A stretch of 64,000 nucleotides of DNA. It comes from Hyphomicrobiales bacterium (GTDB lineage: Bacteria > Pseudomonadota > Alphaproteobacteria > Rhizobiales > OSC116). The notes under the pieces were generated by a model that did no database searches, was not told the DNA's origin, and worked only from the letters and a program-made list of their open reading frames with translations. Below, one piece after another: positions 59,334 to 61,373 of the stretch (position 1 is the first letter of the stretch; every line of letters starts with the position of its first letter). The position numbers were made by a program, and so were the translations under genes. The stretch covers positions 837,443 to 901,442 of the forward strand of contig JABSRZ010000003.1 in assembly GCA_013214705.1 (NCBI GenBank), given 5' to 3'.

Positions 59334-59786
59334 ATGAATTATGAGACTCAACAAAGTGACAGAAAAAAAACTGACAAAAGCAATTGGCAGCGCACTAACA
59401 TTGGCATGATGGTGATCGCATTTTTGATATTTATGCCATTTGGTTTGGTGCTGCTTGCCATGTTAACTTTGGGCAGAAATATAAACTTGCTTGGCATGTT
59501 TAAAGATTTTTGGCGGCGTATGACCAAGGGTGCAAGTTTTAAACAACCCGATCTATGGGCCAGCGCCACAGATAATTATAAAGCCCAAAATTATAACCAT
59601 GATAACGCGGCGTTTAACCAATATCGCCAGCAACGCGATGCAAATTTTGATGAAACTGACAAAGCGGCTTTTGCCAAAATGGCCGAAGAAGAAAAAGCTT
59701 TTAATGAATATCAGGGGTTTAAACAAGCCGCTGAAGAAAAAGCCAAATTCGCCCAGTTTAAGGCATGGGAAGAAAACAAAGACTGA
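59334..59786 (+). CDS. Single-TM protein with charged helical tail, DUF2852-like
   Basis: 150 aa. One membrane segment (GMMVIAFLIFMPFGLVLLAML) follows a short basic N-terminus. The C-terminal half is charged and helical, ending EYQGFKQAAEEKAKFAQFKAW. The combination resembles the alphaproteobacterial DUF2852 family (TM near the start, then a FxxFxxxLxxAKxxxEFxxF-like helix), but I am only moderately sure. Function unknown. Confidence 0.68.
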   Translation: MNYETQQSDRKKTDKSNWQRTNIGMMVIAFLIFMPFGLVLLAMLTLGRNINLLGMFKDFWRRMTKGASFKQPDLWASATDNYKAQNYNHDNAAFNQYRQQRDANFDETDKAAFAKMAEEEKAFNEYQGFKQAAEEKAKFAQFKAWEENKD

Positions 59787-60383
59787 GCTAGCTGTTACCT
59801 CTCCTATCCACACAACGTGCCGCCCAGTGAGCGCGAAAGCGGCCGTTCGAAGCCGCTGCCAACTAACGCGCGGAGGCTAGCGAGCGCAGCGAACGCACGC
59901 AAGTGTCAACAGCCCGCCGAAAGGTGGGCGTAAAAATGCAGACTTCCAGAGCACCGGCAGGAGCGCCGCCCATGAGGTTGCTGAAAAGTTGTGAGGTTGA
60001 AAATTTGCGCAGGAGTTTCGGCCGCTGAGCCAGCGGTTGATGTTGTTAAGACATAGAAAGTTAGCGCTCCTGCCGACGCTCTGGAAGTCTGCATTTATAC
60101 GTTCGGGCGGCCTATCGGCCTTCTCACTGTTGGCACTTGCGTGCGTGCTCATATTTTCAATATTCGCACTAGCCTCCGCGCGTTGGCCACATAGTTTGCC
60201 TTGCGGCTTCTGGGCGCACTCGCCGAATCGCAGGGATTCTTGGTGGCATACGGAAACTCAGCACAAACTTTCCGGAAGTCTCCCCGAACCAACTTGTTGG
60301 CGAACTTGGCCATTGAGGCCCGCCCGTTAGGGCGTAGCAAGCTTTCGGAGAAAGCGCACGCAGTGCAAGCATAAAGCTTTTAC
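59787..60383. other. GC-rich non-coding structured block
   Basis: About 600 bases between the one-TM protein and nrdB with no credible gene; short open frames on both strands have no protein-like character. G+C is far above the neighbourhood: I count 36 of 60 in 59881-59940 and again in 60061-60120. It contains the large palindrome listed separately plus perfect small hairpins at 60321-60334 (CGCCC-GTTA-GGGCG), 60341-60355 (GCTTTC-GGA-GAAAGC) and 59839-59856 (GCGGC/GCCGC). The block is bracketed by AGCTGTTACCT (59790-59800) and AGCTTTTACCT (60375-60385), ten of eleven identical, a possible target duplication. Confidence 0.7.
59858..60187. repeat. ~330-bp imperfect palindrome with nested hairpins
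   Basis: Three blocks of the left arm pair with the right arm in register: 59858-59880 with 60169-60187 (19 bp plus a 3-base insert), 59894-59911 with 60128-60145 (one mismatch in 18), and 59936-59966 with 60064-60094 (two adjacent mismatches in 31). Between the second and third blocks each arm carries its own hairpin: GCCCGCC-GAAA-GGTGGGC on the left, with a GNRA-type loop, and GGCC-TATC-GGCC on the right. The centre (59967-60063) contains CCGCTG-AGC-CAGCGG. It could be a non-autonomous mobile element, a repetitive palindrome or a structured RNA. Confidence 0.85.
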
Positions 60384-61373
60384 CTAAAAATCTTCGTCAA
60401 AAGCTATGCTTCTATCGGATGGGCGTTTATATTCTGTTACGCGTTTCTCGAAGAAATTTGACACATTTTCGACGTCTAGGGCGCGCATGAAGTCAAATGG
60501 GTTTTCGGTGTTAAATACGCGGTCAAAGCCAAATAAATCAGCTATTCTATCGGCCACGGCTTCAATATATTTCGACATTAAGCCTTTATTCATGCCAATT
60601 AAGTCGACAGGTAGCGCGTCATCGACAAATTCTTGTTCAAATTCAACGGCTTCTCTGACCATTTCTTCAAACTGAGCTTGGGTGACACTGCTGTCAATGA
60701 GGTCGAGGCTAGACACATCGCTATCGGTTAGGGTGCCAGCTTTAAATTTGTCGTTCAAAGTGTGATACATGAGGGCAGAAAAACTGAAATGCATGCCTTC
60801 ATCACGGGCAATCCAATCATTTGACAACGCCAAACCGGGCATTAAGCCGCGTTTGCGGAAATAATAAATGGCACAGAAGCTACCGGCAAAAAACAGGCCT
60901 TCGACCAAGCCAAAACCAATAAGCCGCACTAGCAAATTATGGTCGCCATTAAGCCATTTGGTAACCCATTGGGCTTTTTTATTGATGCAGGGAATGTTCT
61001 CGATGGCTTCGAAAAGCTTGTCTTTTTCATCTGGATCGGAAACATAGGTTTCTATTTGCAGGGCATAAACTTCGGCATGAATGCTTTCATTTAACATTTG
61101 CATGGTGATGAAGCAGCGCGCCTCGGCAATGAGGATTTCTTTGTAAAAACGTGAGGCTAGATTTTCGTTTATCATGGCTTCGCTATTGGCGAAAAATGCC
61201 AAAACATGATTGATAAAGCGTTTTTCGCCATCATTCAGTTTTTCTAAATCGCGCAAATCTTCGGCGAATGACACTTCTTCGGGCGTCCAAAAAGATTGCA
61301 CGTGAGTTTTATACCGCGCCCAAATTTCTGGATATTGAATGGGAAAGATGGATGAGACGCCTTTGGAGATCAT
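60384..61373 (-). CDS. nrdB: Class I ribonucleotide reductase, beta subunit NrdB
   Basis: 329 aa, metal-radical subunit for deoxyribonucleotide synthesis. QMLNESIHAEVYALQIETY holds Glu, His and the radical Tyr in class Ia spacing; GLVEGLFFAGSFCAIYYF and NDWIARDEGMHFSFSALMYH carry further metal ligands. The C-terminus ends RSIAFDEDF, the tail that docks on NrdA. It lies 68 bases downstream of nrdA on the same strand. The short, NrdF-unlike form resembles the group that includes eukaryotic small subunits. Confidence 0.96.
   Translation of the reverse strand: MISKGVSSIFPIQYPEIWARYKTHVQSFWTPEEVSFAEDLRDLEKLNDGEKRFINHVLAFFANSEAMINENLASRFYKEILIAEARCFITMQMLNESIHAEVYALQIETYVSDPDEKDKLFEAIENIPCINKKAQWVTKWLNGDHNLLVRLIGFGLVEGLFFAGSFCAIYYFRKRGLMPGLALSNDWIARDEGMHFSFSALMYHTLNDKFKAGTLTDSDVSSLDLIDSSVTQAQFEEMVREAVEFEQEFVDDALPVDLIGMNKGLMSKYIEAVADRIADLFGFDRVFNTENPFDFMRALDVENVSNFFEKRVTEYKRPSDRSIAFDEDF

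Follow-up and report, generated by a model that had tools for sequence, protein, structure and literature searches.

Known repeat systems and the window family

REP-type repeats have been known for decades, and what they do and how they spread is a matter of continuing debate. REPs, including the alphaproteobacterial CGTC REPs, are extragenic and multi-copy, occur as inverted pairs, contain G-T pairs in their stems and lie within ~20 bp of gene 3' ends, at convergent genes and at upstream genes; CGTC REPs have no dedicated transposase (PMC3733652). Mobile insertion cassettes (MICs) and MITEs combine passenger genes and inverted ends with the lack of a transposase (PMC3913671). RIMEs (Osteras et al. 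1995) are cited in PMC3233446.

We analyzed a 64,000-nt stretch of DNA (the window), in which the intergenic block at 59787-60383 is one copy of a repeat family. The family resembles REPs and BIMEs in that its palindromic units are extragenic, multi-copy and near gene 3' ends, and it resembles CGTC REPs in that no dedicated transposase was found. However, REPs are single hairpins of 20-40 bp, whereas an arm of the window family spans ~190-200 bp and holds several exchangeable hairpins. Unlike REPs, the family also has a conserved ~97-nt loop and gene-bearing versions. It lacks the 20-40 bp unit with a single stem-loop and a GTAG/CGTC tag (CGTC does occur near the outer end of the arm, with no REP-type stem after it), and the Y1 transposase associated with GTAG REPs was not found in the source genome. 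Because the family departs from the REP definition in size and structure, we do not class it as REP.

RIMEs, Rhizobium-specific intergenic mosaic elements of ~100 bp, are by description likewise palindromes of mosaic make-up in intergenic DNA, and they come from a related order. As in MICs and MITEs, passenger genes lie between facing ends, but MIC ends copy a known insertion sequence whereas the arms are long, multi-hairpin and without a known parent, and the target-site duplication of MICs and MITEs was not detected. Integron gene cassettes, in which toxin-antitoxin genes are common cargo, resemble the window family in that sites folding on one strand lie between small genes. In contrast to integrons, no integron integrase exceeded the curated cut-off in six genomes with the family, the arms are mostly inverted and the sites are scattered over the chromosome; attC sites are direct repeats, whereas the arms were 16 facing, 10 in the same direction and 1 outward. 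The window family is thus REP/BIME-like in placement and fold, MIC-like in cargo and integron-like in single-strand folding, and it lacks a defining trait of each type.

A palindromic block between convergent genes

The block (59787-60383) fills the gap between the stop codons of a DUF2852 gene (59334-59786, + strand) and nrdB, encoding the ribonucleotide reductase small chain (60384-61373, - strand). The two genes converge on the block, with their stop codons (at 59786 and 60384) ~11 bp and ~6 bp from the repeat proper, a palindrome of ~580 bases at ~59798-60377. The block has a GC content of 51-57% versus 38-49% in its neighbors, so an earlier note was right that the composition differs, if somewhat strong in calling it far from that of the surroundings. 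The same note had described three arm segments pairing in register. An inverted-repeat search recovered them at 59929-59966/60064-60101 (38 nt, 92%), 59893-59912/60127-60146 (20 nt, 95%) and 59865-59880/60169-60184 (16 nt, 100%), and the predicted folding energy of the block is -285.8 kcal/mol compared with -219.4 +/- 5.6 for shuffled sequences (z = -11.9). The hairpin closed by a GAAA tetraloop that had been reported is CCCGCC-GAAA-GGTGGG at 59913-59928. Rfam 15 gave no match in the block at the gathering score; the only match in the window was a tRNA (216-289).

Arms built from constant blocks and exchangeable hairpins

The unit of the family is the arm, ~190-200 bp long, in which constant blocks alternate with small exchangeable hairpins. 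Alignment of 22 full copies revealed a ladder in each arm, with constant blocks S1-S4 separated by slots C, D and E, and an asymmetric loop of ~97 nt between the arms. Alignment of the outer ends showed further layers outside S1.

In the window copy, the left arm (+ strand) begins with an outer part at 59798-59865 (CATCCACACAACGTGCC...GTGAGCGCG, with the hairpin GCGGCCGTTCGAAGCCGC next). This is followed by S1 (59866-59880; ACGCGCGGAGGCTAG), slot C (59881-59893; exchangeable hairpin cassette CGAGCGCAGCGAA of the GA...GA class), S2 (59894-59912; CGCACGCAAGTGTCAACAG), slot D with the GAAA hairpin (59913-59928), S3 (59929-59938; CGTAAAAATG), slot E (59939-59955; CAGACTTCCAGAGCACC) and S4 (59956-59966; GGCAGGAGCGC), which forms the inner end of the arm. 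The apex loop (59967-60063, + strand) is replaced by genes in other copies. The right arm (- strand) runs outward from S4 at its inner end (60064-60074) through slot E (60075-60091), S3 (60092-60101), slot D (60102-60126; TGAGAAGGCCGATAGGCCGCCCGAA in outer-to-inner reading), S2 (60127-60145; CTGTTGGCACTTGCGTGCG on +), slot C (60146-60168; TGCGAATATTGAAAATATGAGCA in outer-to-inner reading) and S1 (60169-60184; CTAGCCTCCGCGCGTT on +) to an outer part at 60185-60268 that ends at about ...GGCATACGGAAACTCAGCACAAAC. An extra outer module with more hairpins (CCCGTTAGGG, CTTTCGGAGAAAG), present in a subset of copies, occupies 60269-60377 and includes an S2-like block (CGCACGCAGTGC). The slots were delimited by cassette comparison, both S3 blocks and the left S4 by copy alignment, the left S1, left S2 and right S4 by inverted repeats together with copy alignment, the right S2 by inverted repeat and motif scan, the right S1 by inverted repeat, and the outer parts by outer-end alignment.

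The source genome has 8, 6 and 4 cassette classes in slots C, D and E, respectively, and left and right slots draw on a common cassette pool in mirror orientation. The hairpin slots reassort: classes are unlinked between D and E and between C and E, and partly linked between C and D. Cassettes of slots C and D are hairpins with compensatory stems (GGC/GCC, GCC/GGC, GAC/GTC, AGC/GCT, CCCGCC/GGTGGG and CATGCC/GGCATG). Read from the outer to the inner end, the stems of distinct cassettes contain 26 G.T versus 2 A.C pairs, and 56 cassettes contain tandem GA...GA pairs, compared with none that contain the complementary motif (TC); both counts overstate the number of events, as related cassettes are not independent. 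Hairpin centers for this strand comparison were placed by maximal pairing with G.T and A.C scored alike, so that the choice of center favors neither strand. The compensatory changes, together with the strand bias of the G·U and tandem G·A pairs, indicate that the small hairpins are kept and that one strand folds alone, as single-stranded RNA or DNA.

We also considered selection for pairing along the long palindrome and rejected it. Mirror slots within a copy were no more alike than slots across copies, and S blocks paired across the arms of one copy no better than after arms had been shuffled among copies. The two arms of a copy therefore do not covary, and conservation does not lie in the long palindrome, which consists of two inverted arm copies that vary independently. 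Of the large structured RNA that had been suggested, the local hairpins conserved on one strand remain, while the arm-to-arm palindrome goes without covariation. Slot C avoids equal cassettes (0 seen versus 3.7 expected, uncorrected P = 0.015), in one of several such tests within an analysis that tried many statistics.

Distribution of the repeat family

Many partial to full matches to the block were found in the source genome. A scan with the constant-block motif ACTGTTDRCACTTGCGTGCG, allowing up to 3 mismatches, detected 77 arm sites genome-wide versus 1 with a reversed-pattern control, and we delimited 60 sharply bounded blocks, mostly 150-650 bp, in the fetched regions. This bears out the proposal that the block is a repetitive palindrome. 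Arm sites are strongly clustered: ~20 lie on the 192-kb contig C45, and C34 and C41 also contrast with site-free contigs. The first 730 kb of C23, with a nuo operon inside, has no arm site, and neither do most small contigs.

The repeat is present in all six genomes of the genus examined (OCS116/Hyphomicrobiales marine MAGs), with few arm sites in two of them (G003 and G004). These genomes are draft MAGs, each read in part, and the loci were picked for holding repeats. In the same order, 55 genomes of other families yielded one marginal 47-base match and nothing else. When 84,980 species genomes were scanned for exact matches, 42 stretches were found, every one from MAGs, with names of the OCS116 cluster, Hyphomicrobiales, Rhizobiaceae or Alphaproteobacteria (isolates NORP83, 94, 194, 335 and DT_98); these MAGs appear to belong to the same genus. 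No match to the repeat was found in the plasmid, phage and viral collections, and a search of the available literature found no paper that combines OCS116 with the term palindromic. The family is previously unreported, and we detected it nowhere outside this genus of marine bacteria.

Placement behind genes

Convergent gene pairs are enriched at the blocks. Blocks of the source genome lie in 26 convergent, 30 tandem and 2 divergent gaps, versus 20, 151 and 33 block-free gaps, respectively, in the same regions. The median distance of a block is ~10 bp to gene 3' ends and ~92 bp to 5' ends, the latter being approximate because gene calling relied on a simple procedure based on open frames and codon usage. 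Block gaps in other species were similar in distances, with 25 convergent, 33 tandem and 4 divergent. Lone arms have their outer side towards gene 3' ends (41 versus 11 for 5' ends), and their inner side is neutral (29 versus 26). Given this orientation, the strand that folds corresponds in most cases to the sense strand of the gene next to it.

Many genes that flank the repeat in other genomes match repeat-flanking genes of the source genome, at the same end. Such site matches across species were seen at nrdB and at C41:7300, C44:69000, C45:116400, C45:106600 and C34:424200, although the sample consists of loci fetched around repeats, so that sharing was seen in a biased set. From their sequences, we take the repeat-flanking genes to include recF, eno, truB-rbfA, uvrC, leuD and trmD. 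The association with nrdAB that had been suggested for the window copy is incidental. For most copies, the closest relative is not the counterpart at the same site (which ranks 1 to 52 of ~59), a pattern that points to homogenization within species or repeated turnover; strict vertical inheritance is unsupported by these ranks. Two of the sites are unoccupied in G004: the nrdB-DUF2852 gap measures ~60-70 bp there, and at recF the two stop codons abut.

Genes between arms

The spacing of facing arms is bimodal, mostly 76-110 nt (the loop) or 0.3-2.1 kb. Neighboring lone arms 250-3000 bp apart were facing in 16 cases, in the same direction in 10 and outward in 1 (facing excess over 25%, P = 1.6e-4). 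Genes in the longer gaps often look foreign. In the source genome, facing-gap genes have a GC content of 0.367 versus 0.454 and deviant codon usage (P ~1e-6 each); in the other genomes their codon usage differs (P = 0.001) and their GC content does not differ significantly (P = 0.19).

Functional annotation identified defense genes (Thoeris) in several of these gaps, and toxin-antitoxin genes between neighboring arms. Facing arms enclose a ThsB-like TIR protein and a membrane protein at L057 and the Thoeris pair ThsB and ThsA_Macro at L078, and arms in the same direction enclose a FitAB-type PIN pair and a Phd antitoxin at L084 and a Gp49/HI1420-type pair at L090. Other facing-gap genes encode DUF6119, a Tle1-like hydrolase, DUF1203 and several proteins without a family, and some facing gaps hold ordinary genes, for example LysE and a methyltransferase (L082) and a transporter (L109). 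The leuD-trmD arrays of L071 and L084 have a common order; a swapped gene and an additional arm-plus-gene unit, one of each, set them apart. Next to arms at different sites and in different species (the C34:55500 region, L071, L078 and L084), a small membrane protein of 88-103 aa was seen repeatedly.

Loop, gene-bearing and absent states were all seen at one site, the 3' end of a 288-aa gene. This position holds TIR genes between arms in the source genome, a loop palindrome in G005, nothing in G003 and G004, and a mini-palindrome of ~120-140 bp with the outer layers only in G001. The G001 mini-palindrome (L136:1345-1412) has an 18-nt center and lies at the position that holds the full repeat or TIR genes in other species. 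Inner boundaries are mixed between copies. Some arms with genes rank with the copies of highest similarity (90-95%), which could reflect recent transposition.

Search for a mobilizer

No Y1 transposase was found in the source genome (98.9% completeness), no integron integrase (TIGR02249) exceeded the curated cut-off in any of the six genomes, and no transposase was seen among the genes between arms in the sampled loci. Two reverse transcriptase matches in the source genome lie on contigs C19 and C20, without listed arm sites. Y1 transposases were present only in G004 (C334, C46 and C208), which, like G003, has very few arm sites. A serine resolvase gene lies at L125:17301-18878, in a repeat-free region.

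Left and right flanks of 45 blocks matched over a mean of 4.8 nt versus 4.9 nt when shuffled, so there was no sign of target duplication; duplications that arose long ago may have decayed. The near-identical 11-mers that had been reported to bracket the block are both present, but the family does not have them as terminal repeats: the pair is found at 1 of 60 copies, the window copy, and one of the two at one other copy. We therefore rejected them as a target duplication. The idea of a non-autonomous mobile element is possible, with foreign-looking genes between facing arms and empty sites in relatives on its side, but neither a transposase nor target duplications nor copies of recent, identical sequence turned up.

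Origin and role of the repeat

We interpret the block as one member of an interspersed repeat family confined to the genus, comparable in its working to an oversized REP/BIME, which is reshuffled by recombination and docks foreign genes; to this reading we give roughly even odds (about 0.5). The outer end of an arm lies just behind the stop codon of a gene, and the outer-to-inner strand of the arm, sense for the adjoining gene in most copies, carries the small hairpins. This strand would fold as RNA within the 3' UTR, where it would mark or protect the ends of mRNAs and restrict read-through. At a convergent gene pair, one arm per gene would yield the palindrome. Copies may spread, homogenize and swap hairpins via RecA-type recombination or gene conversion and need no transposase of their own; we infer recombination as the engine from the mosaicism and from the lack of a transposase. 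As the arms are alike at dozens of sites, arm-gene-arm DNA could recombine into any arm site and foreign genes would dock in this way. We tentatively extend this to a candidate, undescribed gene-cassette system, in which single-strand-folding arms of ~200 bp would serve as interchangeable docking ends at dozens of neutral sites behind core genes, where foreign genes, notably those for defense and toxin-antitoxin functions, enter, nest and swap without a dedicated integrase or transposase. The family is large enough to read selection, with sense-strand hairpins kept at gene ends and the long palindrome not, and it connects REP-type repeats with where foreign genes, including some anti-phage genes, are placed. 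This suggests a possible route by which accessory genes are parked behind core genes without harm.

The main rival is a transposase of another family that recognizes the arms in trans. In that case the palindromes would be miniature elements, the forms with genes would be mobile insertion cassettes, and insertions would persist mainly at gene 3' ends, those elsewhere being harmful. AT-rich, oddly coded genes enclosed by facing arms, the coexistence of occupied and unoccupied sites (as at recF), the gene-flanking half-elements among the most alike copies and the one small membrane protein family at several sites are all consistent with it. We nevertheless regard it as rather unlikely, given that neither target duplication nor a source-genome Y1 transposase nor a transposase between sampled arms was found and that simple transposition does not predict slot reassortment. 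The strand-specific hairpins, the small-gene arrays separated by arms in one direction and the extra unit and swapped gene that distinguish L071 from L084 would also fit attC-like single-stranded recombination sites, at which a tyrosine recombinase inserts arm-plus-gene cassettes via the folded strand. However, no integron integrase passed the curated cut-off in the six genomes, lone arms mostly face each other instead of lying as direct repeats and the arms are much longer than attC sites, which makes this improbable.

Equally improbable is that the repeat is only a large structured RNA or a bidirectional terminator, with the genes between arms being chance neighbors of dense repeats. The 3'-end location and the conservation of sense-strand hairpins agree with such a role, but it leaves unexplained why arm orientations are biased (16:10:1) and why the enclosed genes deviate in composition, and the block ends have no hairpin followed by a clean T run. 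A protein-coding element or gene remnant is barely credible. Open frames of 60-140 aa exist in many copies (91 and 97 aa in the block), and a period-3 pattern was visible by eye in part of the loop over 22 copies; this was lost over 62 copies, where the signal is not significant (P = 0.37), and one-base gaps in the loop break the frame. The insignificant periodicity agrees with the earlier note that the block contains no gene. In contrast to these rivals, the recombining REP/BIME-like repeat remains our preferred reading.

Between facing arms behind leuD, a 569-aa frame (L116:1442-3151, - strand) gave no Pfam match in a scan from codon 37 on. It contains the motif RSDIIHSNREIK, by which it might be a candidate HEPN-like protein.
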